Origin: an uncultured Eubacteriales bacterium
Lineage (GTDB): Bacteria; Bacillota; Clostridia; Lachnospirales; Bianqueaceae
Reading direction: 5' to 3'
Assembly: GCA_902796435.1 (NCBI GenBank)
Contig: CADBPG010000239.1
Location: forward strand, 1-32,325
Length of the DNA stretch: 32,325 nucleotides
Under the pieces are notes generated by a model, which made no database searches, was not told where the DNA came from, and saw only the letters and a program-made list of their open reading frames with translations. Positions 5,759 through 23,000 of the stretch are shown here, piece by piece. Position numbers and translations under genes: made by a program. Within the stretch, counting starts at the first letter, position 1. The number at the start of each line of letters is the position of its first letter.

Positions 5759-8700
5759 ATGAGTAACGATCTGAAATATCAAATCAACGAGCGTAGAAGG
5801 AACAAGAACAAACGCGTGCGGCGCAGCCGTTGGACGCGCTTATTTGCGTTGCTCATAGCTGTGGCTACGCTCTATAGCCTTTCACTCCCGGCGATCACAC
5901 AGGAAAAACAGACATTTTGCGGTATGGAAGAGCATAAGCACAGCGAGGCGTGCTATGAATCCACCGATGAGGATCCGTCCGAGGACGGACATACCCATAC
6001 AGATGCGTGTTATACCGAAACAGAAAAGCTGATCTGCGGTCAGGAAGAAACGGAAGGACATACCCATACCGAGGACTGCTATCAAACGACCGAGAAATTG
6101 GTCTGTGGCCTGGAGGAAGGGGAGGATCATACCCATACGGATGCGTGCTACGAGCGATCGAAAGAACTGGTCTGCAGCCAGGAAGAGTCGGTAGGACATC
6201 AACATACCGAAGCCTGTTATGAGACAGAGCGGAAGTTGGTCTGCGGTCTGGAGGAAAGTAAGGGCGTTTCATCTCATGGGGATGTGGGTCGCAAGCTGAT
6301 CTGTGATCAGCCGGAGCATACGCATTCCTTACAGTGTTATTCAGATCCATCCGCGGATCTGGAGAAAGAAGATGACTGGAAGCAGACATTTCCTGAATTT
6401 ACCAAGGAAACGCCTGCGCAGCGCGTGGCTTTGATCGCACAGTCGCAGGTGGATTATAAAGAAAGTGCAAAAAATTATGCCGTACGTAATGATCAGGCGC
6501 ACGGTTATACACGCTATGGCGTTTGGTCCGGGGATCCCTATGTGGACTGGAATGTGGCCTTTGCCGCTTTCTGCCTGCATTATGCGGACATCGATGCGGA
6601 CGAAATGCCGGCGGCGGACGATGCTGAGAAATGGATCAAATCGCTTGAAAAGCGGGAGATGTACGTGACTGGAGAATGGCTGGCGGCTTATGAACCGGCC
6701 GATGGCGAACTGGTCTTCTTGAAAGAAAAAGAAAAAGAAGATGCTCCGGTGCGCGTTGCCATCGTGACAGATGTCGATACAGAGAAACAGCATTTGGTTG
6801 CCATTGAGGGCGATGCGAAGGATCAGGTCCGGAAGATCAAGTATGATTTTACGGATCAGGACATCCTCGGTATTGGCAGACTGCCTGAAAAAGCATATCA
6901 GAATGAAGCAGCGGAAGAGAGCCAAAAGGACCTCCCGCAATTTCCTGTGCAGCAATTCCGTGCCTCTGACGGGAAAAATTATACGATCACGGTTCGTTTT
7001 GGACCGGATGCCGGTGTGCCGGAAAACGCGCAGCTGGAAGTCAGTGAGATCCTTCCGGAGACCGATCCCGAGGCTTATGAAGCATATGCAGCAAAAGCGG
7101 TAGACGCAGTCGGATGCGATCAGGACAGTGTTGACAATATCCGTCTGTTCGATATCAAGATCGTCGATGGCGCCAATGAAAAGGTGGAACTCCAAGCACC
7201 TGTGGACGTGCAGATCCAACTGATGGAAATAAGTGGGACAGATACAGATACCCAGGTCGTCCATTTCGCGGATGAGAAAGCGGAAGGAGAATTGATCGAA
7301 CAAGTCGAGGTGAAGGAGGAAGACAAGGATGGTTCCAGCAATGCGGAACCCGTAAGGACCCTTTCTTTCGAGACAGAAGGATTTTCAGTGTACGCGATCG
7401 TGGACGCGCCGGAACCTAAAAACACGGAACTGGCGGTCAACAGCCTCAGTGAGATAGAAGCGGGACAGGAGTACCTTCTGTCAATTGTCAGAAGCGGTAC
7501 CAACTATATGACCGGGACAACGACCTTAAATGGCAGTACATATGAGCTCCTCGGAAATACCAATAAAGCATCCGCCGAAAAGTGGGCTTTCGAGTTTCCT
7601 GAAGCAGGAAAGATATATATATACAAAACTGATTCAGAAGGTGCGAAACAGTATTTGAATGTAGATGACGCCAGGAGCATCAGTTTCTCCGATACCCCGC
7701 AGGCTTTCAATATCGAAGAGACGACAAATGCGGCAGGTGCATTTTATATCTATACGGTCATAGGCAATAAGAATTATGCACTCAGCGTCAGAGGCAGCAG
7801 GAATTTCTTCTTTGAAAATAGAAATAACGGCGCTAATGCAAATGAGCGTGTAGTCCTTACGAAGAATGTAAAGGATCTATATGACCTGGATGGCAAGACC
7901 TTTGGCATCGCCTATAATGACGATTCCACTACGGCTGCTGCCATGTCTGCGGATAAAGTCAATGGTCAGAACCGTCTGGCCGGCGTCGATATGGTCATAC
8001 GTCCTGATGCGCTCAACAACAGCGGCAACCTTCTGGTCGCCGAGAACAGCGATATCCAGGAATGGACGTTCGAAGCCATTGAACTCGACAGGTACTATAT
8101 CAAAACGACTGTAGACGGAGCAGAGAAATTCCTCCGCATCAACAATGGCAGTGTGACTTTAGTGGGTGACAGGGCTTCTGCTTCACAGATCCAGGCCACA
8201 CCCGGAACCGATGCCAACAGCGGCAAATGGCATTTTACGGTAAACAATTACTCGCTCAATTATACAGGAGGCAATACGAACAATTTCAACGCGGCTAATA
8301 ACAGCAACGCGTCCACGTGGATGAATTTGGTCGAAAAATCTACTCTGTCTGATGATGATTTCGTGGAATATTCCGCCCGCAAGATCAGCGTCAGTGACGA
8401 GTCTATAGGTGCGAGTGCACCGGAAAAAGCCCAGGTCATCGTCTATACCCGTGTATGGAATGAAACGACCAAGAAATATGAGTTCTATGCCGTTGACCAT
8501 GACGGATCGCTTATACGCGTCTATGACAGCGGTGATATGATCAATTGGACCGGTAATAAGGTCAATTCGGCTCTTTGGGAGTTCACGGAATACACCAATG
8601 CTGACGGCACTCCGAACTATTACTACGAGCTGCAAAACACTGCTTATTCCGGAACATATCTGGTGCCTCAGTCCGAGAGCATCATAGCCGATCATACCGT

Positions 8701-11700
8701 CGGTATCAATATGAACGGACGCCGGGAGGGCTTTGACTTTACGACCATCGTCGCGTGGGATGATGACGCGTATGGGTATTCCGGCCTGAAAGTAGAGCGG
8801 GATGAGCATGGCGCTCTTAAGGCCGTTACTTGCCCGTTCGATGAGGCTGACGATTTCTACTTCGCAGTGATGACGCCTCCTGTTGGAGAAGCGGATGATG
8901 CTACGACAGTAGAGACGGTGGACAATGATGAATTCGGCATCAGTATCAAGATGATCGATTTCAATAACAGGATCGATAAAGATAACCGCGATAACGTGCA
9001 GAGGTCTTATTTCGGACATCATCCGTGGAATCAGGCTCAGGCGTATGAAGCTGAAACAGGATTGGTATCTACCAATCTGGTGGACGGGTATCCGACGATC
9101 ACGGCAAATACCGCTATGGAAGGTACAAGCTTGTCAGGCCTCTTTAATGACATGACGCCTGCCAATCACCTGTTCATTCAAAGCGTATATAATGAAAGCG
9201 GCTATTTCGAATACGACAGCACTCAGAACTTCGCGCATTTTAATACAAACAAATACGGCCACGAAGACCAAGAAAACCTCGGGAACTTCACGGTCTACAA
9301 TCAGCTTGGCGCGATCGGGACCAATACGGGACCTACCAGAGTACACGGCCAGTTCATGCCCTTTAACAATATCAGTGCCGAGACCGGCTACGCTCATGAT
9401 GACCAAGGGAACGTGATCACCAATCAGCGGGACATCAAAGGACAGGAGCTTCCGGATACTGACCCCCGCAAGGGTGAGCCCCTGTATTCGATCCCGCAGA
9501 ATGAAGCCGATTATTTCTACGGTATGGAGCTTTCCGCCGTATTCACGCAGCCCCCTGACGGTGCGGACGACTGGGGACATGACATCATCTTCGAATTCAC
9601 CGGAGACGACGACTTCTGGTTCTACGTTGACGGTGAGTTGGTATTGGATCTGGGCGGCGTCCACAGTGCCCTGGGTGGCACCGTGAACTTCAGGACAGGC
9701 GAAGTGAACTGCAATGGCACCGAAACGACGCTCTATGACATTTTCAAGAGTAATTACCAGGCGCGCGGAAAGGATCCCGCGGCGGTCGAAGATCTCTTCG
9801 TGACAAAGACAGTGAACGGGAAGACGGTCCATGTCTTTAACGACTATACCACGCACGAGATGAAGATGTTCTATATGGAGCGCGGAGCCGGCGCATCCAA
9901 TCTGAAGATGCGGTTTAACCTGGCTTCCGTTAAACCTGGCACAGTGGAGCTGTCCAAAAAGCTCAAGGGTGTCGATCACGCATCGAACAAACTCATCCAG
10001 TATCCGTATCAGATCTGGTATCAGACAGCTGAATATGAAAAAAATCCAGACGGCACATACGTGCTTGATGAAAACGGCAATCGCAGAATCGCGAGTTTTA
10101 ACACCCCGGTCCTTATGGAGCAGCCTGCAGCGAATGAAAGTCTGAGCGGAAAAGTATATGCATCGTATAAGGGTACGAATACTCTGATTCCTTATAAGGA
10201 CTCCATGACGATCGGAGAAAATACATATAACAATGTATTCCTGCTAAAGGCCGGAGAGACGGCAGTGGTCAACTTCCCTGAGAATACCTACAGGTATAAG
10301 ATCATCGAGTGCGGCGTGGATACTGCGGTATACGATCATGTCTACATAAATGGCGATCAGTCCGGAGATGAGATCTTTGGAAAACCGTATCATAATACTG
10401 ACGGAGGGGATACGTCGCCAACCGCAACCACAACATATGATGGAACGACCCGGTCGGATTTCGGCATCACCTATGATACGTCGCAGGACCGCCCCAGAGT
10501 AGAATACATCAATGAAGCTCCGCCGGAAGTCATGCGTACGGTATCCTTAAAGAAGGTGCTCTACGATGCGGATGGCAAGCTCCTTACGGATGAGGAGGCT
10601 GCGCAGATCAAAGATGTATTTACGTTCAGACTCTATCTGGGTAATGAGTTTGCGGATCAGGAGAACCTTCTTCCGGCCAATATGTACACATATTATGTCA
10701 AGGGACCGGATGGTAATTACTGTAAGTGGGACAAGGCGGCCAAGAGCTTTGTATCGCTCAACGTTGGAACATACGAGGCATTCAAAGCCTTGAGCGAAGC
10801 TGATCAGAATGCGGGAACATTCACCACATCTATGTACGGCTCGATCTCTAAGATCCCTGCCGGATATACCGTCGAGGTGCGCGACCTGATCGTCGGCACC
10901 AAATATAAGGTAGAAGAGTTTGACCGGGAGATCCCGAGAGGTTACACGCGCCGCGATAGTGACGGCTATGTACGTACGGATGCGGATCCCGATGTAGTCT
11001 ATTATACCGAAGAAGGTGCATATGGTCAGCATCCTGCGGCAGGCAATACGACCACGGCGGAACCCATCAGTGATACGATCGCTTCCAAGACCGAATCGCC
11101 CACGATCGAGATCCGCAACCAGCAGGGCTGGGGTCTGACCGCGAAGAAAGAATGGACGGACAAGGACTTTATCATCCATGATCCGATCTATATGGCAGTC
11201 TATCTCGATGATGGGACCGGCAACCCCGGAGAACTCATAGAAGGGTCCGTACGCAGGTTGGATTCTGACAAGACGGAGATCTACTGGTTCTTCCCGGATC
11301 TGAAGGTAAACGGCGAGCCAAAAAGATTTGACCAGTTCATCGTTCGCGAAGTGGAACTGACCGGCAGCCCTGTTGTGGGTGAGGACGGTGTCGTGACGGG
11401 TTACACCGGTATCACGCCAGTAGGTGACGGCATGCCCATTAACGTCAGCGGCAAGACGATCAGCGGCTCTCCCAGAACAGAGAATTATACTGTAAACTAT
11501 CAGCCCGGCGAATCCACCGGACAGAACCAAAAGATCCGCGTTGACACCATAACGAATTCCAGACCCGGTATCCAGATCTATAAGACAGACTGGAGCGGTG
11601 AGACTTACCTGTCCGGCGCAGAATTCACGCTGAAGGATTCCGGTGGCCATGATGTGGGATATGCGTCCTATACTTCAGGCAGTGATGGCTTGGTGACCAC

Positions 11701-12799
11701 AGCCTACCTGAACGAGGGCACCTTTACACTGGATGAGATCAGGACCCCATCTGGCTATGTGGCACTCGACCAGCCGATCACCATTACGGTGACAACAACT
11801 GAACCGGCAAGTTATGATCTGACGGTGGCAGTAGGAAATACGACGTATTATATCAAAGTGAGCGGCCCCGAAGGCTTCTTTACAACTGCTGCGGCAACGG
11901 ATAAAACGATGGCGCGCATCACTGTGAAGAACCGTACCTTGAGGGAGCTGAAAGTCGAAAAAGTAGGAGTTGACGGCAGCACGAGGACCGCGCTCAGCGG
12001 CGTTCATTTCGCCTTGTATGACCAGGTCAAAGACAGTGAAGGTAACGTGCGTCCCGCATATAATCCCAAGACCGGTTATGAAGATCTTGTAACAAATGAC
12101 GATGGCATCCTTACGGATATGACGATGAACGTCGGCCCGGGCACTTACTATCTGAGAGAGAAGGCTGCTCCCAGCGGGTACAAGAAGCTGGCGGAAGACC
12201 TGTGCATTACGATCGGTAAGAATGGCAGCGTAACGATCAATAACAGCGGTTATAAGAACTGGCTGACCAAGGATACTTCCGTCCCGGGTACTGTCTCATA
12301 TCAAATCAGCATCGAGAACACGCCCCTCGGTATAACTTTGCGAAAGGCGGATGAAAGCGGAGCGCCTTTGGCCGGAGCGAAATTCGAGCTGAAGATGAGC
12401 CACAACGGCAGCTTCGAACCTGTCAACGGATACGGACTCGGGGAAAATGGTCTGATCGATATGACAGACAAGGCGGAGATGACCTTTACCGGTATGACCA
12501 GCGGCATCTATTGGCTCTCGGAGATCGCTGCTCCTCCAGGTCACATCATTCAGAACAAGGACATCTACTTCAGTGTTTCTGACGGTGCGGTGACGATCAC
12601 CGATAAAGACGGCAATGAAACAACGTATGCCGGAGTAGAGCTTAAGGACGATAACACGACGATCATAGTGAAAAATGTATCAGGCCCTGCCTTGCCATAC
12701 ACAGGCGGTTTCGGCACGTCGCTGATCTACATCCTCGGGATCTTGCTCACAGGCATCGCCGGAGCTTGGCTGGTGATGAGGAAGAGACGGAGCGTATAA
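5759..12799 (+). CDS. Giant LPXTG-anchored surface protein with His/Cys repeats, degenerate CHAP-like domain, fibro-slime domain and SpaA/Cna-B-type domains
   Basis: A 2346-residue sortase substrate. Residues about 20-50 form a long signal peptide ending near LPAIT. Residues 59-195 hold six HxHxxxCY units with intervening LVCGLEE-type motifs. Residues about 221-376 resemble an NlpC/P60-CHAP-like domain (GDPYVDWNVAFAAFCLHYA), but the catalytic Cys position is Asn265 and the usual His position is Arg332, so it should be inactive. Beta-rich segments of unknown type fill about 560-1045. A fibro-slime domain spans about 1060-1400 (DDDFWFYVDGELVLDLGGVH near 1282). Pilin/Cna-B-like domains lie at about 1395-1910. 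Three SpaA-like domains cover about 1935-2015, 2060-2165 and 2190-2300, with Lys and Glu isopeptide-type positions (TLDEI, YYLREKAAPSGY, YWLSEIAAP). LPYTG is at 2312-2316, then a hydrophobic helix and RKRR. It is a probable adhesin or stalk. No sortase gene is in the window. Confidence 0.9.
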   Translation: MSNDLKYQINERRRNKNKRVRRSRWTRLFALLIAVATLYSLSLPAITQEKQTFCGMEEHKHSEACYESTDEDPSEDGHTHTDACYTETEKLICGQEETEGHTHTEDCYQTTEKLVCGLEEGEDHTHTDACYERSKELVCSQEESVGHQHTEACYETERKLVCGLEESKGVSSHGDVGRKLICDQPEHTHSLQCYSDPSADLEKEDDWKQTFPEFTKETPAQRVALIAQSQVDYKESAKNYAVRNDQAHGYTRYGVWSGDPYVDWNVAFAAFCLHYADIDADEMPAADDAEKWIKSLEKREMYVTGEWLAAYEPADGELVFLKEKEKEDAPVRVAIVTDVDTEKQHLVAIEGDAKDQVRKIKYDFTDQDILGIGRLPEKAYQNEAAEESQKDLPQFPVQQFRASDGKNYTITVRFGPDAGVPENAQLEVSEILPETDPEAYEAYAAKAVDAVGCDQDSVDNIRLFDIKIVDGANEKVELQAPVDVQIQLMEISGTDTDTQVVHFADEKAEGELIEQVEVKEEDKDGSSNAEPVRTLSFETEGFSVYAIVDAPEPKNTELAVNSLSEIEAGQEYLLSIVRSGTNYMTGTTTLNGSTYELLGNTNKASAEKWAFEFPEAGKIYIYKTDSEGAKQYLNVDDARSISFSDTPQAFNIEETTNAAGAFYIYTVIGNKNYALSVRGSRNFFFENRNNGANANERVVLTKNVKDLYDLDGKTFGIAYNDDSTTAAAMSADKVNGQNRLAGVDMVIRPDALNNSGNLLVAENSDIQEWTFEAIELDRYYIKTTVDGAEKFLRINNGSVTLVGDRASASQIQATPGTDANSGKWHFTVNNYSLNYTGGNTNNFNAANNSNASTWMNLVEKSTLSDDDFVEYSARKISVSDESIGASAPEKAQVIVYTRVWNETTKKYEFYAVDHDGSLIRVYDSGDMINWTGNKVNSALWEFTEYTNADGTPNYYYELQNTAYSGTYLVPQSESIIADHTVGINMNGRREGFDFTTIVAWDDDAYGYSGLKVERDEHGALKAVTCPFDEADDFYFAVMTPPVGEADDATTVETVDNDEFGISIKMIDFNNRIDKDNRDNVQRSYFGHHPWNQAQAYEAETGLVSTNLVDGYPTITANTAMEGTSLSGLFNDMTPANHLFIQSVYNESGYFEYDSTQNFAHFNTNKYGHEDQENLGNFTVYNQLGAIGTNTGPTRVHGQFMPFNNISAETGYAHDDQGNVITNQRDIKGQELPDTDPRKGEPLYSIPQNEADYFYGMELSAVFTQPPDGADDWGHDIIFEFTGDDDFWFYVDGELVLDLGGVHSALGGTVNFRTGEVNCNGTETTLYDIFKSNYQARGKDPAAVEDLFVTKTVNGKTVHVFNDYTTHEMKMFYMERGAGASNLKMRFNLASVKPGTVELSKKLKGVDHASNKLIQYPYQIWYQTAEYEKNPDGTYVLDENGNRRIASFNTPVLMEQPAANESLSGKVYASYKGTNTLIPYKDSMTIGENTYNNVFLLKAGETAVVNFPENTYRYKIIECGVDTAVYDHVYINGDQSGDEIFGKPYHNTDGGDTSPTATTTYDGTTRSDFGITYDTSQDRPRVEYINEAPPEVMRTVSLKKVLYDADGKLLTDEEAAQIKDVFTFRLYLGNEFADQENLLPANMYTYYVKGPDGNYCKWDKAAKSFVSLNVGTYEAFKALSEADQNAGTFTTSMYGSISKIPAGYTVEVRDLIVGTKYKVEEFDREIPRGYTRRDSDGYVRTDADPDVVYYTEEGAYGQHPAAGNTTTAEPISDTIASKTESPTIEIRNQQGWGLTAKKEWTDKDFIIHDPIYMAVYLDDGTGNPGELIEGSVRRLDSDKTEIYWFFPDLKVNGEPKRFDQFIVREVELTGSPVVGEDGVVTGYTGITPVGDGMPINVSGKTISGSPRTENYTVNYQPGESTGQNQKIRVDTITNSRPGIQIYKTDWSGETYLSGAEFTLKDSGGHDVGYASYTSGSDGLVTTAYLNEGTFTLDEIRTPSGYVALDQPITITVTTTEPASYDLTVAVGNTTYYIKVSGPEGFFTTAAATDKTMARITVKNRTLRELKVEKVGVDGSTRTALSGVHFALYDQVKDSEGNVRPAYNPKTGYEDLVTNDDGILTDMTMNVGPGTYYLREKAAPSGYKKLAEDLCITIGKNGSVTINNSGYKNWLTKDTSVPGTVSYQISIENTPLGITLRKADESGAPLAGAKFELKMSHNGSFEPVNGYGLGENGLIDMTDKAEMTFTGMTSGIYWLSEIAAPPGHIIQNKDIYFSVSDGAVTITDKDGNETTYAGVELKDDNTTIIVKNVSGPALPYTGGFGTSLIYILGILLTGIAGAWLVMRKRRSV
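5933..6343 (+). repeat. In-gene repeats encoding HxHxxxCY / LxCGxEE units
   Basis: Six copies of an HxHxxxCY motif. The central four (starting at residues 78, 101, 124 and 147) are spaced exactly 23 residues apart, each followed by a second Cys in L(V/I)C(G/S).EE. Regular His and Cys spacing suggests metal binding or disulfides. Confidence 0.85.
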
Positions 12800-12856: not shown

Positions 12857-14233
12857 TCAATCCACCTGCGGCAATCTGGCGCGGAAGGTCTCCAGTTCCT
12901 CGTCGGTCGGGATGTAATCATTCATTTCACCGTTGTGGAACTTCTCATAGGCCACCAGATCGAAGTAGCCGGTACCGGTCAGACCGAAGACGATGGTCTT
13001 CTCTTCGCCGGTCTCCTTGCACTTGAGCGCCTCGTCGATGGCAACGCGGATGGCGTGGCTGCTTTCCGGTGCGGGCAGGATGCCTTCCACGCGGGCAAAC
13101 TGTTCCGCTGCCTCGAAGACCTTGGTCTGCTCGACGCTGACCGCTTCCATATAGCCATCATCGTAGAGCTGCGACAGGACCGGGCTCATGCCATGGTAGC
13201 GCAGACCGCCGGCATGGTCCGCTGAGGGGATGAAGTCGCTGCCCAAGGTATACATCTTAGCCAACGGGCAGACCATACCCGTGTCGCAGAAGTCATACGC
13301 AAAGACGCCGCGGGTCAGGCTGGGGCAGGATGCAGGTTCGACCGCGATGATGCGATAGTCGGCTTCTCCACGCAGTTTTTCGCCCATGAACGGGGAGATC
13401 AGTCCGCCCAGGTTGGAGCCGCCGCCGGCACAACCGATGATGATGTCCGGCTTGATGCCGTATTTGTCAAGTGCGGCCTTCGTCTCCACGCCGATCACGC
13501 TCTGGTGCAGCAGGACCTGGTTCAGGACGCTGCCCAAAACATAGCGATAACCAGGATTGGATACGGCAGTCTCCACCGCTTCGCTGATGGCGCAGCCCAG
13601 GGAACCAGTGGTACCCGGATGCTCTGCCAGGATCTTGCGGCCGACTTCGGTCGTCATGGAGGGAGAGGGGGTGACGGATGCGCCGTAGACTTTCATCACT
13701 TCACGGCGGAACGGTTTTTGCTCATAGCTCACCTTGACCATGAAGACCTTGCAGTCCAGGTCAAAGTACGAGCAGGACATGGACAAGGCTGTGCCCCATT
13801 GGCCGGCACCGGTCTCTGTAGTGACGCCTTTAAGGCCTTGTTTCTTAGCGTAGTATGCCTGGGCGATCGCGGAATTCAGCTTATGGCTGCCGGAGGTGTT
13901 GTTGCCCTCGAACTTGTAGTAGATCTTTGCCGGGGTCTGCAGTTTTTCTTCCAGACAGTAGGCGCGGACCAACGGTGAAGGACGGTACATTTTGTAGAAA
14001 TCACGGATCTCCTGCGGGATCTCGATATAACGGTTGTCGTTGTCCAGTTCCTGCTGAACCAGTTCGTCACAGAAGACACCGCTCAGTTCCTCAGCGGTCA
14101 TCGGCTGATGGGTCGCAGGGTTCAGCAACGGTGCGGGCTTGTTCTTCATATCCGCCCGGACGTTGTACCAGGTCTTCGGCATCTCATCTTCGGTCAGGTA
14201 GATCTTGTAAGGGATACGGTTCTTGTCGGACAT
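12857..14233 (-). CDS. trpB: Tryptophan synthase beta-like PLP enzyme (TrpB2 type)
   Basis: A 458-residue PLP enzyme expected to join indole and serine to give tryptophan. GSHKLNSA carries the PLP lysine (near residue 117). ETGAGQWG, the Gly-rich phosphate-binding GCAGGGSNLGG (near 268) and FGLTGTGYFD are all typical. The extended N-terminus (PKTWYN, RPSPL) and the length fit the TrpB2 group, which often occurs without trpA, as here: no other trp gene is visible. The ATG at 14233 is chosen because AAAGGAG lies seven bases before it; an upstream in-frame start would fall within the terminator stem of the leader. A Trp-specific T-box precedes it, which supports a role in tryptophan supply, probably by using free indole. 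Confidence 0.93.
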   Translation of the reverse strand: MSDKNRIPYKIYLTEDEMPKTWYNVRADMKNKPAPLLNPATHQPMTAEELSGVFCDELVQQELDNDNRYIEIPQEIRDFYKMYRPSPLVRAYCLEEKLQTPAKIYYKFEGNNTSGSHKLNSAIAQAYYAKKQGLKGVTTETGAGQWGTALSMSCSYFDLDCKVFMVKVSYEQKPFRREVMKVYGASVTPSPSMTTEVGRKILAEHPGTTGSLGCAISEAVETAVSNPGYRYVLGSVLNQVLLHQSVIGVETKAALDKYGIKPDIIIGCAGGGSNLGGLISPFMGEKLRGEADYRIIAVEPASCPSLTRGVFAYDFCDTGMVCPLAKMYTLGSDFIPSADHAGGLRYHGMSPVLSQLYDDGYMEAVSVEQTKVFEAAEQFARVEGILPAPESSHAIRVAIDEALKCKETGEEKTIVFGLTGTGYFDLVAYEKFHNGEMNDYIPTDEELETFRARLPQVD

Positions 14234-14309
14234 GTTCTGTCTCCTTTCTCGTTCGGGGCTGTTTCGCCCCTTGTACTGTGATCGATCCGGGACAGGGTAG
14301 TGAATAAAT

Positions 14310-14590
14310 AAAAAACCTGTCCCATGCATTTGACTGCTGGGACAGGTGTATTAACATAACCTGCGGTGCCACCCGGCTTGATGTGCATCAGCACACCCAC
14401 TTAGCGCATACGATCATATGCCGGACTTTGATCACGGAGGTCCCGCTCCGTCTCCCATACTGCGGCTGTGCCGTTTCTGGTCGCCCTCAGAAGCCCATTT
14501 AGTAAAGGAACTTTTGCCGCGATCCCACCATCCGCGGCTCTCTGGAAAAAGAAGATCTTTACTTACTCACTCTTCCTCAACGGTTTGCAT
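14310..14590 (-). promoter_or_regulatory. T-box leader (tRNA-Trp sensing) with terminator, upstream of trpB
   Basis: Read on the minus strand, Stem I starts with GAGGAAGAGTGAGTA, continues through an AGAGAG box and GGTGGGATCGCGGC (14516-14543), and returns with CTTTACTAAATGGGC. The likely specifier codon is TGG (Trp) at 14495-14497. The T-box sequence GGGTGGCACCGCAGG lies at 14360-14374. It is followed by a 10-bp terminator stem (14315-14324 with 14338-14347) and a T run (14310-14315). Uncharged tRNA-Trp would stabilise the antiterminator and allow trpB transcription. The motifs and the product agree. Confidence 0.93.
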
Positions 14591-14591
14591 C

Positions 14592-14620
14592 AATTTACCA
14601 CAGGAAAGCTAATCTGTCAA
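14592..14620 (-). promoter_or_regulatory. Sigma-A promoter of the T-box/trpB transcript
   Basis: On the minus strand a perfect TTGACA (14615-14620) and TAAATT (14592-14597) with a 17-base spacer. The predicted start near 14585 fits the beginning of Stem I. Confidence 0.75.
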
Positions 14621-14683
14621 GCATGAAATTTGAATTGCATGAATTAACAGTATGAGAGTTCTGTAAAGCTGAAAAAAATGAAG

Positions 14684-14712
14684 TTCACTATTCTCGCCTC
14701 TTGTGCTATAGT
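14684..14712 (+). promoter_or_regulatory. Putative promoter for the sigma factor/lipoprotein unit
   Basis: TTCACT (14684-14689) and TATAGT (14707-14712) with a 17-base spacer. The leader to the first candidate start (14803) is about 85 bases. Any site recognised by the encoded sigma factor itself could not be identified. Confidence 0.45.
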
Positions 14713-14802
14713 ATATTTTAGAAAAAATTTCAGATTCTTGCAACCGTTCTTTGCTTTCGATCGTTATAAGAGTGAAAACCACGAGGAAAGAAGGGATTCC
14801 GG

Positions 14803-14943
14803 TTGATCGAGAGCTTGCTCCGGGTATGGATCAAAAATGCGATCTTGTCATTCCCAATCGATCAGGAGAAAAAATCACATTTATTGCAAAAGATCCTTAA
14901 GACATTGATGCGTGACAGAGAAAACAGGGAGACGGTTCGTTGA
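14803..14943 (+). CDS. Possible 46-residue leader protein overlapping the sigma factor start
   Basis: A TTG-initiated ORF preceded by GAGGAAAGAAGGG, about seven bases away. It encodes 46 residues, mostly amphipathic and basic at the end (starts MIESLLRVWIKNAIL). Its TGA overlaps the TTG start of the sigma gene within TTGA, the classic arrangement for translational coupling. No homology was recognised and it has no other support, so it may be chance. If real it could be a coupling device or a small modulator of the sigma factor. Confidence 0.35.
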   Translation: MIESLLRVWIKNAILSFPIDQEKKSHLLQKILKTLMRDRENRETVR

Positions 14944-16277
14944 AATACTGCGATTATTGCCATAAAGAAATACCTGATGAGGCGTTGTTCTGTCCGCATT
15001 GCGGGCGGCAGGACACCTGTGCCGGCAGCCTGATCGGCAGAGCGGAACGGGGAGACCAGGAGGCAGTCAGCCGGTTATATGAATGGTCATATGATATTGT
15101 GTACCGATCGGTCCGCCCTATGTTCAAGGATGAAGATACGGTCTTTGACATCATTCAGGACACATACATCAAAGCCTTTACACATCTGAGCGGGTTGCAC
15201 AGCGATGATGAATTTATACCTTGGATCCGAAGGATCGCACGCAATACAGCTTTAGACTGGTTGAAAAAGAAACAGCCGCTGTTGTTCAGCCAATTGTCTG
15301 CAGGAGAAGAGCAGAAAGTCCCGGTCGAAGAATTATTGGAAGACAAGTATGTCGGACATATCCCCGACCGGATCCTGGATCAGAAAGAGACACAGCGTCT
15401 GATCCGCCAGATCCTCGACGAACTACCGGAGGATCAACGAGCAGTCATCATCATGTTTTATTTTGATGACATGTCTGTCAAGGAGATCGCGGAAATGACA
15501 GGCGCTACGGAAAGCGCGGTCAAGAGCCGCCTCCTGTATGGACGTCGGAAGATCGAGAAGAAGGTACGTGAACTGGAGCAGGAGGGTACGAAACTATATG
15601 GTATGGCACCGCTCCCATTCCTGCTTTGGCTTGTGCGTGATCAATACAATTATGTATCCACAGCGCCGGATCGGGTCATACGGCAGAATCTTTTCAAGAG
15701 TCAAGCAGGGCAGCCGGTTGCATCAGCGTCCGCCAGTGGAGCCGGCGCCGTTGGCAGTGCCGCGGCATCGAAGATCGTGATCGGCGGTATCTTGGCATCG
15801 ATCATCCTTGGCGGCGGGATCTACGGGATCATCCAATCGGCACAGCCTGCATCCGATCTTTCCGAAAACCAGATCGTTTCCACCATTTTGCCAGAAAAAC
15901 AGGACGACATAAACGACTGGATCGCCCAGGAAGAAGCATCAGGCCGCGTCGTTTTGACGGGTACGATCGATACATACACCTACGATGAAGCTGTGGAATT
16001 GCAGGGAATGCCGGACTGGAATGAGCCGGATAACGAACTGCGCAGGATCATCGTGGTCGATTCGCCTAAGGTCGTACGCGGTGTGCATGTGGACGGCTAT
16101 CAGGAAAGCGAAGTAAGGCTGATCCTGGTCACGGATGCTGATTTTCCCGCTTCCTATGATGGGCAGCAAATAACTTTCAGTGTCAGCCCGGAAACTTTGA
16201 TGTGGCCCAGTGATACAAGAATTCCGGTCATGCAGCCTGGAACCAATGATATCCATATCATGGATCGATACAAGTGA
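14940..16277 (+). CDS. Zinc-ribbon ECF-like sigma-70 factor with C-terminal membrane anchor and extracytoplasmic domain
   Basis: A 445-residue fusion. Residues 1-25 are a zinc ribbon (Cys4, Cys7, Cys18, Cys21). About 30-110 is sigma region 2 (DIIQDTYIKAF, IPWIRRIARNTALDWLKK). About 150-205 is region 4 with the helix-turn-helix (MSVKEIAEMTGATESAVKSR). Residues about 276-298 form one membrane helix, leaving about 145 residues outside the cell. The start is TTG with GGGAG eight bases upstream; no in-frame ATG fits. No separate anti-sigma gene is adjacent, so the tethered C-terminal part may hold the sigma factor at the membrane and sense a signal, perhaps with release by proteolysis (inference). 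The lipoprotein gene follows 19 bases downstream. Confidence 0.88.
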   Translation: MKYCDYCHKEIPDEALFCPHCGRQDTCAGSLIGRAERGDQEAVSRLYEWSYDIVYRSVRPMFKDEDTVFDIIQDTYIKAFTHLSGLHSDDEFIPWIRRIARNTALDWLKKKQPLLFSQLSAGEEQKVPVEELLEDKYVGHIPDRILDQKETQRLIRQILDELPEDQRAVIIMFYFDDMSVKEIAEMTGATESAVKSRLLYGRRKIEKKVRELEQEGTKLYGMAPLPFLLWLVRDQYNYVSTAPDRVIRQNLFKSQAGQPVASASASGAGAVGSAAASKIVIGGILASIILGGGIYGIIQSAQPASDLSENQIVSTILPEKQDDINDWIAQEEASGRVVLTGTIDTYTYDEAVELQGMPDWNEPDNELRRIIVVDSPKVVRGVHVDGYQESEVRLILVTDADFPASYDGQQITFSVSPETLMWPSDTRIPVMQPGTNDIHIMDRYK

Positions 16278-16296
16278 TTTGAGGAGGAAGAGAAAT

Positions 16297-18402
16297 ATGA
16301 AACGCTTGATGGCAATATGCATCAGCAGTGTTTTGGTGATCTGTGCACTTTCGGCTTGCGGCAAAAAAGATGCTGGCAATGTTTTTGAAGAGTCAGAATC
16401 GCAGGCTGAGGTAGTGGAGGAATCCTCAGAGGTGCCAGAGTCCAGTGAAGAAAGTTCCGTGGAAGAATCGTCTGCAGAGGAATCTTCAGTACAAGAATCT
16501 TCAGTAGAAGAATCAGAGTCGGAAGCACCGGAAGATGATTCTTCGCGAGAAGAAGCGGCCGGCATCGGTGAGGAAGACCAAAGTGCCGAGCTGGTGCAGA
16601 CTTCTGACAACGAGTTTGAGATCTGGGACACCGAGGAAATGGAAAACGCTCCCGTGCTTGAAATGAACCGGAAATACCTGGTGCGGCATGAGGGAGGGAG
16701 CCGCTTCATCGCCTTTACCACCGGAGCCCAGAATGGTGAATCGTATACCATTACCTTAGAAAACCTGACCGAAGACAGCAAAGATGTGTATGCCATTTTG
16801 CTTGATGCAGATGGGAACGATATCAAGCCGACAGAAAAAAACAACGGACATAATCCCATTAGTGGAAAGAATATCCCCTTTTGTGTAGCTGGACCAAGAG
16901 GTCTTGTGAGCACCGGTATGTCCAATGAACTGGAGCCGAATACGACGTATTATCTGCGCCTGGATTGTGGCCCTGCATGTGATCTGGTGCTCAAGGTCGC
17001 AGCGCCTTCCATGGAAACAGCAGTTGCGGAGACAGCAGATACAGAGGCAGGTGCGTTCAATCCGTTGCTGGATAAATTGGCGATCGAGCCCGGTGCCAGT
17101 CAAAGTACGGCGATCCCGCTTCCGTTGAATACGACGGTCATGGATGCCAGTCCCTATGGACGTGTGTATTTTGCCTTTACGACGTCGGAAGAGCCGGGTA
17201 AAGAATATAAGTTCACTGTCGTCAATTGTACAGTCGGCAGCAAGGATATCTTTGGCCGTGTATGTGATGCCTTTGGTAATGCTGTCGATCCGACAGAAAG
17301 GGATAATGATTATTATAGCTACAGTATCATCACCCCGCTTTGCATTGCCGGAAGTTCCGGAACGGCCAATACGGGAATGATCAATACACTGGATCCAGGT
17401 ACGACCTATTACGTCTACTTGGATATCGAGGTGGGCACCACCTATGCCCTGCGCATTTCGACGCAAGATGAGGCAGAGGACGAGGCTTTTCCGACCAGCA
17501 GCACGTTTGCTTCAGCCAAAGCACCGTTGGAGGAGGATGACCCGTTCTATACCGGTTCCAATCAGACCGTCGCCACGATGCTACAGCCGAATATCCGCTA
17601 CTATGGCACCTGCTCAGAAAACCATGACTGGGTCGCGTTTACGACAGACGCCGCAGAAAGCCTTCCCTTCACCTTTACAGCGCAAAACCTGACAAAAGGC
17701 AGCGACTATATTCATGTGGATGTGATCGATGAATATGGCCGGGCACTGGAGCCAGCAGAGCGTGAGAATACATATTATGCGCATAGTGTCGATATTCCGT
17801 TCTGCTATCCCAGTGATGATGGTAAAGAGAATTCTGGCATCAGTGAACCATTGCATCCGAATACAACATATTATATCCGCATCAATGGAGCGGCAGGAAC
17901 GGATTTCATGCTCTTGATCGGCCCGCCGGAGAAAGAGGAACCTGTGGAAGAAGAGGAGCAGCCGGAGAACGATCTGATCTTCCAGGAAGCCTTCGAACTC
18001 AACGAGACGCAGGTCCGCTTCGTGGGTGATGAGGCGATCTTCATCGATGAGGAAGCGGCCAGAGAAGCCTTGAAGCCGGTGGCGGAGATCCTTCTGGCGC
18101 ATCCGGATCACCCAGTGCTGATTGCCGGCACCACCGCGACCGTGGGCACCCAGGAAAGCTGCGTGAATCTGTCCGACCGGCGCGCGGCCGCGGTCAAGGA
18201 TCTGCTGGTCAAGGAATACGGTGTGCCGGCTGACCAGTTGCTCACCATCGGACTGGGCTACGCGGATGATATCTTCAAACGCGGTAAAGACATCGATTCC
18301 AATGGCAGGTTCGTGGAGACGGAAGGGGCCAAGAACCGCCGCGTGTTGGTCCTGGATGCGAACGACGAGCGTGCGCAGAAGGTACTGGAGAAGAGATCAT
18401 AA
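16297..18402 (+). CDS. Lipoprotein with three repeated beta domains and C-terminal OmpA-like domain
   Basis: A 701-residue lipoprotein. The signal peptide ends in lipobox LSAC with Cys21. The start at 16297 has GGAGGAAG upstream, and 29 extra in-frame codons upstream are rejected because they lie inside the sigma gene and spoil the signal peptide. A Ser/Glu-rich spacer covers about 27-95. Three homologous units follow (about 126-233, 281-387, 427-537), each with a (V/I)AFTT-type strand, a conserved D(A/E).G motif before PTE/PAE, and a closing (N/G)TTYY strand. Residues about 555-698 form an OmpA-like domain (NLSDRRAAAVKDLLV, GVPADQLLTIGLG, AKNRRVLVLD), which in the family binds peptidoglycan. 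Probable wall-contacting partner of the membrane-tethered sigma factor encoded just upstream. Confidence 0.87.
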   Translation: MKRLMAICISSVLVICALSACGKKDAGNVFEESESQAEVVEESSEVPESSEESSVEESSAEESSVQESSVEESESEAPEDDSSREEAAGIGEEDQSAELVQTSDNEFEIWDTEEMENAPVLEMNRKYLVRHEGGSRFIAFTTGAQNGESYTITLENLTEDSKDVYAILLDADGNDIKPTEKNNGHNPISGKNIPFCVAGPRGLVSTGMSNELEPNTTYYLRLDCGPACDLVLKVAAPSMETAVAETADTEAGAFNPLLDKLAIEPGASQSTAIPLPLNTTVMDASPYGRVYFAFTTSEEPGKEYKFTVVNCTVGSKDIFGRVCDAFGNAVDPTERDNDYYSYSIITPLCIAGSSGTANTGMINTLDPGTTYYVYLDIEVGTTYALRISTQDEAEDEAFPTSSTFASAKAPLEEDDPFYTGSNQTVATMLQPNIRYYGTCSENHDWVAFTTDAAESLPFTFTAQNLTKGSDYIHVDVIDEYGRALEPAERENTYYAHSVDIPFCYPSDDGKENSGISEPLHPNTTYYIRINGAAGTDFMLLIGPPEKEEPVEEEEQPENDLIFQEAFELNETQVRFVGDEAIFIDEEAAREALKPVAEILLAHPDHPVLIAGTTATVGTQESCVNLSDRRAAAVKDLLVKEYGVPADQLLTIGLGYADDIFKRGKDIDSNGRFVETEGAKNRRVLVLDANDERAQKVLEKRS

Positions 18403-18418
18403 ACAGTTCAGGCATACA

Positions 18419-18451
18419 AAAAGAAGCCGATGCAATGCGTCGGCTTCTTTT
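18419..18451. terminator. Bidirectional intrinsic terminator
   Basis: A perfect 12-bp stem (18419-18430 with 18440-18451) begins AAAA and ends TTTT, extendable inward over a GC pair. It serves the lipoprotein gene and the converging glycosidase operon. Confidence 0.92.
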
Positions 18452-18464
18452 ACATTTCTAGCAT

Positions 18465-20075
18465 TCAGTCTACGATCACCATCGTCGTGACATCCGCCTT
18501 TCCCACGTCTTCCCACTTGGCCATGCCGAAGTAGGGGGTCCCGTCCGCCCGGAAATGTACCCGGCGGATCCCGTCGCAGCGCTTGTGCGACTCGATCGAG
18601 GTCTCACCATGATAGGCGATCATCAGCTCCCCATCCTCGTTGGTGAAGAAGGAGTTGTGGCCCGGACCGAATTCACCATCCACGGAGTAGAAGGTCAGCA
18701 CCGGGGTGATGCTCTTCGTCCAGGCGTTCAGGTCTAGCAGATCGCTCTTTGTGGAAGCGGTCAGAAGGCCTAAAGCGTACGTATACCAGGCAGCGTGGCC
18801 GCCGGAGTAGGTCACATACAGGGTCCCGTCTTTGATGAAGGCATGGGGCCCTTCATTATTGATGGTTCCGGCGACGTTCTCCCAGCCCAGCAGCGGCCGT
18901 GTCAGAAGAACAGGGTCGCTGGTCAGCTTCCAGGGTTCCTTGGGATCGATGGAGGCAATGTGCAGCATGGAGCCGGAATCCAGCGGCGTGCCGATGTTTT
19001 CCCGGTAGGACCAGATCATGTAGGACCCGGTTTCGATCTCCACATAGGTCATGTCCAGGGTGATCGCATCCTCCGTCAGAGGTTGTCCGTCCTGGCGCAC
19101 GACCCGGATGGGTTCTTCCCAACCGTCCTCATCGATGATGCGGCCGGTCTTTTTCTTTTTCATCAGGTGGCACTGGGGCCCCCACTTGGAACCACTGACC
19201 GCGAAGAGGATGTACAGTTCCCCGCCGATCACGTGGAATTCCGGCGCCCAGAAGGTCTGCTCGAAGCCCCGTTCCGGCGCGTAGGGCAGGATCAGGTGCT
19301 CTTCGATGCCCTCCGCGAAAAGCCCTTCCGCAGTATCAGCCTCCCGGACATACAGGCCGATATCGTTCAGATTATCGTAGGTGGAAATGAAGTACCACTT
19401 GCCCTCCCACGGGAAGAGCACCGGGTCTCCATAGCCCTGGGTCAGAGGGAAATCAAAGTACTGCTGACGGACCGTGCCCTCCACAGGATAGATCCCAGGC
19501 TGGGTGAAATCCACCTGACCCTGCTTCCAGTGGACCTGTTTCTGCCGGGTGGATCCGTCAGAATACAGCAATGTTGCCTGTACAGTCTCCAGGTCCTCAG
19601 CGGACTGTACATGGACCTCCTGCGGCACATACAGGCCTGTGCAGGAGATGGGGCTCCAGTAGATCAGCGCCTTCTTTGCCAGCTCTGCCTCCACCTCAAG
19701 GACCGGATTCGGGTGGAACTGCAATACCGCGGGGATGTCCACCAGACCCACCGTGTGAAAGTGGATCAGGTCCTTTGTTTCCCAAAGGTAGACCTTGCCG
19801 CTGGCCGTTTCATCCAGCGATCCATCCTCGTGGACCAGTTCGCCGCAGATCCCGATCACACCGTCCTCACGTTGGTAGAGGGCAGGATGCCGGATCCCCA
19901 AGGGAACGATCGTGTTCTCTTCAGAGATGCGGCCTTCCGGGAAAAGGATACCGTAGTTCTTGTTGTAGGGCTTAAGGGTGCCGTCGGCCATTTCCACGGC
20001 CAGATGCACACTGTGGGCCAGGCCCGCCGGATAGTTTGCGGTATCGACGGGCCTGGTATATGCATGGATCTTCAT
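18465..20075 (-). CDS. Glycoside hydrolase family 43-like enzyme
   Basis: A 536-residue cytoplasmic glycosidase, last gene of the operon. The N-terminal 190 residues are beta-rich. The GH43 five-bladed propeller motifs follow: GYGDPVLFPW (base Asp, near 215), FWAPEFH (near 278), ITLDMTYVEI (Asp, near 338), NNEGPHAF (acid Glu, near 405) and GPGHNSFF. Family members release arabinose, xylose or galactose from side chains; the exact substrate cannot be read here. No signal peptide. The ATG at 20075 is one base after the stop of the rhamnosidase gene with no good ribosome binding site, suggesting coupled translation; starts at 20096 or 20108 inside the upstream gene are possible. Confidence 0.87.
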   Translation of the reverse strand: MKIHAYTRPVDTANYPAGLAHSVHLAVEMADGTLKPYNKNYGILFPEGRISEENTIVPLGIRHPALYQREDGVIGICGELVHEDGSLDETASGKVYLWETKDLIHFHTVGLVDIPAVLQFHPNPVLEVEAELAKKALIYWSPISCTGLYVPQEVHVQSAEDLETVQATLLYSDGSTRQKQVHWKQGQVDFTQPGIYPVEGTVRQQYFDFPLTQGYGDPVLFPWEGKWYFISTYDNLNDIGLYVREADTAEGLFAEGIEEHLILPYAPERGFEQTFWAPEFHVIGGELYILFAVSGSKWGPQCHLMKKKKTGRIIDEDGWEEPIRVVRQDGQPLTEDAITLDMTYVEIETGSYMIWSYRENIGTPLDSGSMLHIASIDPKEPWKLTSDPVLLTRPLLGWENVAGTINNEGPHAFIKDGTLYVTYSGGHAAWYTYALGLLTASTKSDLLDLNAWTKSITPVLTFYSVDGEFGPGHNSFFTNEDGELMIAYHGETSIESHKRCDGIRRVHFRADGTPYFGMAKWEDVGKADVTTMVIVD

Positions 20076-20076
20076 T

Positions 20077-23000
20077 TTATTTTCGGATGATGACATGATA
20101 GGTACCACTCAGCGCTTCCGTGGTCTGGAAGCGGTCATTTTCGGGTTCGAACACAAGGCCATCGGCTTCCAGCACCGTGCCGGCGGGCAGCTTGACTGTG
20201 GCAGTGGAACCTACAGGAATGGTAAAGCAGACATCGTAGGCTGTATCTGTGATCTGCCAGCGGCTTTCGATCCGGCCGAAGATGGAATCAAAGTATCCTT
20301 CGGCATGGTCCAGACCTTCCATGTACGGCTGATACAGGAAGTGGGTGAAACCGGGTTCGGTGCGCTTGATGCCCAGTACATATCCGTAGATCCAGGCGCA
20401 GACTGCACCCAGAGAATAATGGTTGAAGGAGTTCATGGCGTTATTGCCGCCAAAACCGTTCTCTACCGTGTAGGAATTCCAGCGTTCCCAGATGGTGGTG
20501 GCGCCTTGAGTGACAGGGTAGAGCCAGGAAGGATAGACGGTCTGGGTGATCAGCTTGTAAGCCACGTCCGCGTAGCCTGCCTCGGTCAGTGCGGGATTCA
20601 GCGGACCGGTGCCGACAAAGCCGGTGGTGACCGTATAGCCGACTTCTTCTGTGATCTTACGCAGGTTTTCGCGGACCTTGGCAAGGTTCTCAGGCAGGAT
20701 CACACCGTATTCCAGCGGCAGAGCATAGGAAGCCTGCGTGTTGTTCCGGGTGCCGTCCAGCTTGCGGGTGATCAGTGTCTCCGGCTCCAGATAGGTCTCG
20801 TTCCAGACCTGGCGGATCTGGTCGCACAGCGCCTGATAGGCGGCCGCTTTCTCCGTCTCGCCGATGACAGTGGCCATCTCGGCCATGATCTTGCAGTCAT
20901 AGGCGAAGACCGCGTTCCAAAGCAGCGGACCGTCAGTGGAGAGATCACTGGCCAGCCAATCTGGCAGCGGTCCGACATTGTCCAGCTTGCCGGGCGTGCC
21001 CTGGGCTTTCAGGAATTCGATGTAGCGGTCCATCGCCACGAAGTTTTCACGAATCAGGGCAGGATCGCCATACTGCTGATAGGTCTCATAGGTCACGATG
21101 ATGCCGGCGCTGCCCCATTCGATGCCGCCGAAGCCGCCGCCGACCGGTGCGATGTCCGGATACCGGCCGTTCTCCAGCTGGCAGTCACGCAGCCACAGCA
21201 GGTATCTGCGATAGAAATTGTGGACATCCGCGTTGTAGGTAGCTGTGCGTGCGAAGACTTCCGCGTCGCCGGCCCAGCCCATACGCTCATTGCGCTGCGG
21301 GCAGTCGGTCGGGATACTGACAAAGTTGGCGAACTGCGACCAGCGTACATTCTGGAAGAAGCGGTTGACCAGAGGATCCGAACAGGTAAAGGTACCGGTC
21401 TCACGGTTGATGGAGGAGAGCACGGCAGCCTGCACTTCTGCGATCTCCGGCTTCTTGGAAACGCCGGTGATCTCTACGAAACGATACCCATGGAAGGTCT
21501 GATCCGGCATGAAATCCTCGCCCTCTGCATCGCCCCGGAAGGTGTAGCGGTCGGTCGAGATGGCATCACGATAGTTTTCCGTGAGCAGCATACCCTGCTG
21601 ATGCCCATACTGGGGCAGGTAGGGATAGAGGATCTCGCCGAAGCGGATCACTGCCTGTGTTCCGGCGGCGCCATGCAGGTGCAGTTTCGGCACACCGATC
21701 AGGTTCTGGCCCATGTCATAGATATAGACGCCGGGACGGGGCTCGCTGACAGACTGTGCAGTCAGCGTCATAATCTGGCGGACGGGCTCGCCCATGTAGC
21801 CGACCAGTTTCGGCGGATCCATCTTCGGGATCGGCCACATATGGAAACCGCCACGGGCATGTGTGCGTTCTTTCTCGAAGTCGACAGGCCCTACGATGAT
21901 CGGGGCCTTCCAGGCGGAATCATCGAAGTCCGGGCAGGAGAACTGCTCCAGCAGACTGGCTCTGCGTCCATCGAAATGCTCTCCATAGAAGAAGCCGGCA
22001 AATTCGACGGGGCCCTCTCCACAGTATTTCCAGGAGGCAGGCTCCGTGACGATCACATCCTCCGTACCATCTGCATAGGTCAGGACGATCTGGGCCAGCA
22101 GAGACTGGCGGTCGCCCCAATAGTTATAGTTGGTGGGGGAGAAGGTCTGGGATTCGTTCCACCAGCCGGAGGACAGCTGGAACCCAACGGCGGCCGGACC
22201 CTCTGCCAGTTTGTCGGTGATGTCATAAGTCTGGTACAGCAGATGAGCATCATACTGGCCGGCCCCGGGTTCGAACCAATGGTCGGACACCTTGGTGCCG
22301 TTGACATATGGCGTGTAGATGCCGCGGGCAGTCGCGTACAGGCGGGCCTTCTTCAGGCCAGGTTTGACAGTGAATGCCCGGCGCAGCATCGGTGCAGAAG
22401 TATGGGTCGCGTCGATCAGCCTGCGGCCCTGTACGACAGAACCATCCGCCGCAGCATCGTAGATCAAAGCTTCCGGAGACCGCAGATTGAAGATCTGCAG
22501 TTCAGCCAGCTCGAACCCCTGCGTGCTTTCGTAACCGAATTCGCTGAGCATGGGGTAGGGGGTGACATCGGTGCTGCCGGCCGGGTTGAGCTGCCGCGGT
22601 TTTTCGATATATACGGGAACGCCCGGCTTGGCTCCTGGCGGGGTAAAGGCCAGCTTCTGTTTGACAGCATCGCACTTGACTCCGTCGATGTACGTGTAAG
22701 CAGCATTTTCCGCCACTTCAAAGTCGATGGTATGCCAGTCCAGCGCATTCTCCTGTCCGATCAGCACCTGCTCCGGATCATCAAAAGAGACGGCAGTAAA
22801 TGACGCGATCGGCGTGTCGGCAGAATCCTCCGGACAGTATCCGATACGGTAGATGTCGATCTTTGCGGGCGTCTGGCTTATGTCCAGTGCATAGGCGATC
22901 TCATTAGGACCTTCGATATTATAGTCATTCTTGTTCTTGTCCAGCAGACGCGGGTCATTGGCGCCGAAGATGAAGCGGATCTGCGCATCCTTCTGCGTAG

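Follow-up and report, generated by a model that had tools for sequence, protein, structure and literature searches.

An envelope-signalling operon predicted around a one-protein transmembrane ECF sigma factor and its partner lipoprotein in an uncultured clostridial bacterium

The stretch of DNA considered here (the window) is contig CADBPG010000239.1 of an uncultured Eubacteriales bacterium, 32,325 nucleotides long. The genome that carries it, referred to as G000, is an assembly of 2.67 Mb in 262 contigs. On the + strand of the window, alone between opposite-strand neighbours, lie a gene for a sigma factor of the extracytoplasmic function (ECF) type that continues into a predicted membrane helix and an outer domain, and a gene for a large lipoprotein (Table 1). 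The gap between the two is 19 bp, and an AGGAGG precedes the lipoprotein start. A small gene overlaps the start of the sigma gene, and as read from the sequence the predicted operon is of three genes: the small gene, the sigma factor and the lipoprotein. The initial annotation had placed the beginning of this unit at 14803, which is the start of the small gene; the small gene itself and the promoter ahead of it had escaped notice.

Table 1. Positions of the predicted features of the operon in the window.
Feature	Position	Strand	Basis or remark
Sigma-A-like promoter TTCACT-17-TATAGT, extended -10; possible basal promoter	14684-14712	+	Consensus match only
ECF-type promoter TTGCAACC-N14-ATCGTTATAA, predicted autoregulatory site	14738-14769	+	Identity across four genomes
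Small gene, 46 codons, TTG start; TGA overlaps sigma TTG start (TTGA)	14803-14943	+	Homology, codon-position pattern
Sigma gene, TTG start; 445-aa ECF sigma factor, N-terminal zinc ribbon, predicted membrane helix, outer domain	14940-16277	+	Pfam, NCBIfam, hydrophobicity
Zinc ribbon CxxC-x10-CxxC	14940-15008	+	Pfam Zn_Ribbon_1 aa 3-23, 3.6e-7; Cys 4, 7, 18, 21
Sigma region 2	15090-15275	+	Pfam PF04542 Sigma70_r2, aa 51-112, 2.2e-8
Sigma region 4	15396-15554	+	Pfam PF08281 Sigma70_r4_2, aa 153-205, 5.8e-17
Conserved linker motif KLYGMAPLPFLLWLV between region 4 and helix	15588-15638	+	Alignment of orthologues and tethered sigmas of the order
Single predicted transmembrane helix	15771-15833	+	Hydrophobicity
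Outer domain, no known family	15834-16274	+	Conserved in lipoprotein-bearing genomes
Lipoprotein, 701 aa, ATG start; Glu/Ser stalk, three beta repeats, OmpA domain	16297-18402	+	Pfam, sequence reading
Signal peptide and lipobox LSAC (Cys21)	16297-16359	+	Sequence
Repeat 1, beta-sandwich, PPC/collagen-binding-domain-like fold	16606-17010	+	
Repeat 2	17074-17472	+	
Repeat 3, the one modelled	17530-17931	+	
OmpA-like domain	18049-18291	+	Pfam PF00691; Ala codon of GTTA = 18136-18138
Intrinsic terminator hairpin, probably common to the operon and the convergent GH43 gene	18419-18451	+	-23 kcal/mol, z -5.6

The initial annotation had read a zinc ribbon, sigma regions 2 and 4, a membrane helix and an outer domain in a single protein, and Pfam matches and hydrophobicity locate all of these in the expected place. 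Regions 2 and 4 are matched in Pfam and region 3 is not, as in ECF (group IV) sigma factors, and the protein scores 102.5 bits against TIGR02937 (cut-off 42.9). One segment, at about residues 278-298, is strongly hydrophobic (Kyte-Doolittle 2.14; next best 0.88); it lies C-terminal to region 4 and is followed by 147 acidic residues, which on the basis of hydrophobicity is the layout of a transmembrane ECF. In the linker that joins region 4 to the helix lies a motif, KLYxxAPLPFLLxL, that recurs at this place in the tethered sigma factors of the order and is a candidate inhibitory or membrane-seating segment. Pfam finds no anti-sigma domain in the sigma protein and no match in the linker. The outer domain gave nothing with Pfam, with a PDB sequence profile or with an AlphaFold model searched by Foldseek (predicted local distance difference test, pLDDT, 51; no structural match). 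An OB-fold or DUF4431-like outer domain was considered, found no support and was dropped. The closest named record is a Clostridiales metagenome-assembled genome, with 95% identity across the sigma protein. The zinc ribbon is absent from the orthologue in genome G003, which keeps the outer domain, the promoter and the lipoprotein, and the ribbon is therefore regarded as accessory and dispensable.

No canonical anti-sigma gene is visible beside the sigma gene, as had been observed at the outset: by Pfam both immediate neighbours are enzymes encoded on the other strand, a pyridoxal phosphate-dependent enzyme (PALP, 12857-14329) upstream and a GH43-domain protein (18465-20108) downstream. The view of the locus as a compact transmembrane sigma system that lacks a separate canonical anti-sigma factor is supported. 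An Rfam scan of 14300-18600 gave no match.

The lipoprotein with three repeats described beside the sigma gene is also present as described, with its lipobox. The repeats are about 130 residues each, share 29-32% identity and 27 invariant columns, and are present in relatives. Repeat 3, modelled by AlphaFold from an alignment of six repeats, is predicted as a sandwich of beta strands only (pLDDT 65); for this model Foldseek ranked the collagen-binding domains (CBDs) of ColH and ColG first (E 3e-5; TM score 0.61-0.68 for the best) and also retrieved Tk-SP. By weak sequence matches the repeats look like Fn3 or purple acid phosphatase domains, as against PPC/CBD by fold search; Pfam returned no PPC match for them and weak Fn3-type matches instead. 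The model suggests that the repeats are likely beta-sandwiches of PPC-like fold.

The C-terminal part had been taken for a peptidoglycan-binding OmpA-like domain of a kind uncommon in Gram-positive-type cells. Membership of the OmpA family is clear: residues 585-665 match PF00691 at 2.1e-12 (47.7 bits, cut-off 27.2) and align with OprF, ArfA, Omp38 and Pal. Binding is another matter. In Acinetobacter baumannii OmpA, D271 and R286 are critical for diaminopimelate binding, as judged by Ala substitutions (PMC6572160). In the present domain the GHTD motif has become GTTA, the diaminopimelate-pairing Asp being Ala, and the Arg of LSxxRA is kept. Since all five members read (G000, G001, G003, G009 and G057) have Ala in place of the Asp, peptidoglycan binding by the standard route is doubtful. 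Nor is the domain rare in the order, since it scores in 40 of the 58 genomes of an order-wide sample. Within the bacterial family, 19 genomes were covered, and the only ones with an OmpA domain are the four that have the sigma-lipoprotein pair; outside the family GHTD was kept at eight of the nine OmpA loci read, most of the eight with a MotB-like N-terminus. The G057 member (L054, contig C10, 4761-6083, +) is an OmpA-domain lipoprotein with the Asp-less GTTA, without beta repeats or an adjoining sigma gene.

The two-gene unit is conserved, with the pair present in G001, G003 and G009. Identity to G000 is 95%, 55% and 46%, respectively, for the sigma orthologues and 95%, 60% and 40% for their outer domains. 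In all four genomes the lipoprotein comes after a sigma orthologue that has this outer domain and, among the tethered sigmas read, it occurs only with such orthologues. The lipoprotein of G009 is split over two contigs, leaving C25 and resuming on C3; as the contig ends overlap exactly over 139 bp in the right orientation, it is likely, not proven, to be one gene with more repeats. Codon changes in the sigma gene between G000 and G001 are silent in 50 cases and replacing in 22. A broken sigma gene was seen in G002 (L055, contig C332, 3541-4307), with an in-frame stop, a frame break and an end before the helix; it has the same neighbours and is without the lipoprotein.

Conservation extends to the predicted ECF-type promoter. 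ECF promoters of Bacillus have AAC in the -35 and CGT in the -10 element. All 14 defined bases of the site are identical in G000, G001, G003 and G009, where it precedes the same operon at a similar distance, and it has been kept although the surrounding sequence of G003 and G009 has diverged. There is no second site in G000 with one mismatch allowed. A scan with two mismatches returned more sites than a reversed-pattern control; those checked were nearly all intragenic, and no recurrence of these other sites was found between genomes. Autoregulation is likely, because the site is identical in the four pair-bearing genomes and other near-matches are almost all intragenic. Sigma-A-like consensus matches number seven against 4.5 expected, and inspection by eye also shows sigma-A-like sites ahead of the ECF site in G003 and G009. 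We infer from these elements a basal level of expression on which positive autoregulation is superimposed; of the targets that this motif can reveal, the lipoprotein would be the main one. At the level of sequence, the gene and domain layout, the promoter conservation and the co-occurrence of the two genes can be considered established.

The frame at 14803-14943 is taken as a real small protein on comparative grounds. Overlaps of the same kind (ATGA type) precede the sigma genes of G009, of a G001 paralogue and of G015; in G003 the small frame extends 26 bases into the sigma gene. The peptide is basic and in its closest homologues has a (F/L)PID turn, and FPID followed by K-x-x-LL is common to the peptides of G000, G003 and G009. 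Compared with each other, these three score above all 1000 shuffles, as does the G000 peptide against that of the G001 paralogue; pairwise scores of the G015 member are lower. A profile search of 116 genomes recovered the frames of G000, G009 and G015 at 1e-23, 5e-19 and 4e-15, with a profile whose rows include the very members that it recovers, and the rest were marginal. All three strong matches abut a sigma gene. Between G000 and G001, eight of the 10 base changes in the small gene fall in the third codon position. Among the tethered-sigma members read, the gene is restricted to the zinc-ribbon branch, and its role may be translational coupling or regulation of the sigma factor. SirC_C, MinE and chorismate mutase were considered as identities and rejected, their Pfam and NCBIfam matches being at chance level only.

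The part of the protein from sigma domain to membrane has strong matches (E <= 1e-22) in 18 of 295 genomes of the order. A membrane helix follows region 4 in all 18 proteins checked, with 146-587 residues beyond it. The outer domains vary and include BspA-type and other leucine-rich repeats, an RCC1 propeller, bacterial SH3 (SH3_3), F5/8C-type domains and unrecognised ones. A conserved core that carries unrelated outer domains is the pattern to be expected of a family with swappable sensors. In G018 (L052, contig C43, 4678-9088) two tethered ECFs stand in tandem, with near-identical cores and different outer domains, a natural case of sensor swapping after duplication. The outer part of another tethered ECF, in G118 (L077, contig C26, 319-2295, -), is an RCC1-type beta propeller of seven repeats. 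Four members of family f5 (L073, L076, L082 and L083) have a different upstream motif, AACCAAAAC then CGACAACTATATA, which is possibly their autoregulatory promoter.

Taken together, we consider it moderately probable that the locus is a self-regulated envelope-signalling operon built around a one-protein transmembrane ECF, which, once released from the membrane, probably by proteolysis, drives its own operon and with it the lipoprotein. Its own C-terminal half would hold the sigma factor at the membrane and keep it inactive. The outer domain would receive a signal, which may be the state of the partner lipoprotein, and this would lead to cleavage of the helix by a site-2-type protease; the freed sigma domain would then transcribe mainly its own operon, giving more sigma factor and much more lipoprotein. 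The lipoprotein would decorate the cell surface by means of its lipid anchor, stalk, beta repeats and OmpA-like domain. A role in translational coupling is envisaged for the overlapping small gene, whose product may in addition be a small regulatory peptide. More tentatively, one may envisage an undescribed class of one-protein transmembrane ECFs in Clostridia with a conserved core (sigma domains, KLYxxAPLPFLLxL linker and helix) and interchangeable sensors, in which the present branch forms a closed loop with its own operon as main target, made up of a translationally coupled micro-protein, the sigma factor and the lipoprotein, the OmpA domain no longer binding peptidoglycan in the usual way and the lipoprotein feeding back on the outer domain.

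Several points weigh against the model of a self-regulated operon. Its support comes from sequence, and tethering, membrane localisation, inhibition, cleavage, sigma activity and contact between sigma factor and lipoprotein are all steps that we infer. The two M50 (site-2 type) proteases of the genome speak for the model, though weakly, since M50 proteases are near universal. The outer domain, on the model and search described above, has no recognised fold. Weaker targets may have escaped the regulon scan, which relied on a single strict motif, and an AAC-N-CGT-like upstream site is found in only 10 of 21 tethered-sigma genes against 3.5 expected by chance, a count that comes from a loose pattern and from genes some of which are close relatives. 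The four pair-bearing genomes represent two genera, with three in one genus, and all are fragmented assemblies.

Other explanations of the same features have to be considered. The initial annotation had envisaged a flow of wall state by way of the lipoprotein to the sigma factor, which is only one direction. On this view, the lipoprotein would be a sensor in contact with the wall or an extracellular ligand and would relay that state to the sigma factor's outer domain. The lipoprotein goes with one particular outer domain and not with tethered sigmas generally, and this conserved association does suggest that the two touch, be it for sensing or for feedback. The lipoprotein gene, however, has the position of a target, behind the predicted autoregulated promoter; the OmpA domain of the protein is without the diaminopimelate-binding Asp; and other tethered sigmas occur without such a partner. 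We therefore regard a sensor role as rather unlikely, and since the ECF-type promoter is shared with the sigma gene, the lipoprotein is at least equally likely to be an output. It is unlikely, to a slightly greater degree, that the sigma factor is active while tethered, or is switched by conformation or by the metal or redox state of its zinc ribbon, with no proteolysis. The four Cys of the ribbon have the right spacing, and neither a site-1 protease nor an anti-sigma gene adjoins the operon. The loss of the ribbon in G003 argues that it is not essential, and the studied relatives of this layout have been shown or are thought to be released by proteolysis.

The small gene might also supply the missing regulator, in the form of a miniature anti-sigma factor or a cofactor, with the fused C-terminal part serving only as an anchor. 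Conservation at the protein level and the constant overlap with the sigma start in the zinc-ribbon branch would fit such a role. Translational coupling alone can explain the position, though; the gene was not found before other tethered sigmas, and the peptide has no similarity to known anti-sigma families in Pfam and NCBIfam, which makes this an improbable explanation. The patchy presence of the system in the family and the broken copy in G002 might even suggest a decaying or chance fusion without function. Three other genomes, however, carry intact frames with 46-95% identity, the promoter is conserved, and most codon changes between G000 and G001 are silent, so that this reading is very improbable. 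If the model of a self-regulated operon is true, the locus represents a minimal signalling unit from the outside to a promoter in Clostridia, made of one protein whose own operon is its predicted main target, and the natural swapping of sensors could serve in ligand finding and in the building of synthetic switches. The small overlapping gene and the modified OmpA domain are concrete oddities of the system.

Elsewhere in the window, at 5759-12799 (+), lies a gene for a 2346-residue surface protein with N-terminal tandem Cys/His repeats of the HTHTDACY...LICGQEE type, a tract that looks unusual. The protein also has three SpaA domains, a weak PA14 match and a C-terminal LPYTGG sortase-type anchor.

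Membrane-fused sigma factors are already known; the present branch, its partner lipoprotein and the tiny overlapping gene look undescribed. No literature on zinc-ribbon tethered ECFs in Clostridia was found in a search of partial coverage, which makes this absence weak evidence; for the same reason an earlier description of clostridial tethered ECFs may exist. IutY of Pseudomonas putida (ECF243) is a cell-surface signalling fusion of sigma and anti-sigma factor, activated by proteolysis of its C-terminal half by Prc and RseP (PMC8999054). Like IutY, the present protein combines in one polypeptide an ECF sigma domain, a membrane part and an outer part, which in IutY is periplasmic. IutY, however, is Gram-negative, has a FecR-kind anti-sigma half and has an outer-membrane receptor as partner, whereas the present system has a different outer domain, a zinc ribbon, no receptor and a lipoprotein as partner. 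Pfam found no family in the C-terminal half of the sigma protein and hence none of the FecR-like domain typical of ECF243, so the protein is not an IutY-type fusion.

Similar in layout is ECF52, whose member SCO4117 has sigma domain, membrane helix and extracellular domain in one protein and is putatively autoregulated (PMC5826349). In its presumed working the present protein resembles both IutY and SCO4117. Between the sigma domain and the membrane, ECF52 proteins have a zinc finger (pfam13490); they also possess a proline-rich stalk and a carbohydrate-binding module, and the group is described as exclusive to Actinobacteria (PMC8999054, PMC5826349). The arrangement of sigma domain, helix and extracellular domain is shared with ECF52 and also with ECF48 and ECF53 (PMC5826349, PMC8999054). 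Unlike in ECF52, the zinc ribbon here is N-terminal and belongs to another family (Zn_Ribbon_1). The protein is not a member of ECF52, since Pfam found no pfam13490 behind the sigma domain and the host does not belong to the Actinobacteria. The distinction from both ECF52 and ECF243 is drawn from domain content and, for ECF52, also from the host.

The SigI-RsgI systems of Clostridium thermocellum exist in several sensor variants, and their helix is cleaved by RseP. They resemble the present system as clostridial sigma systems with variant sensors and in the membrane-helix cleavage that is postulated here (PMC6056542, PMC12203970). The sensor there is carried by a separate anti-sigma factor, RsgI; in the present system sensor and sigma factor form one fused protein. 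SigV-RsiV and SigP-RsiP of Firmicutes are similar in that the ECF is freed by regulated intramembrane proteolysis on envelope damage; they differ in having a separate anti-sigma gene. The lipoprotein shares its OmpA domain with OprF, Rv0899/ArfA, Omp38 and Pal and its lipid anchor with Pal, and is set apart from all four by its beta repeats and stalk, the loss of the Asp, its host among the Clostridia and its place in a sigma factor operon.

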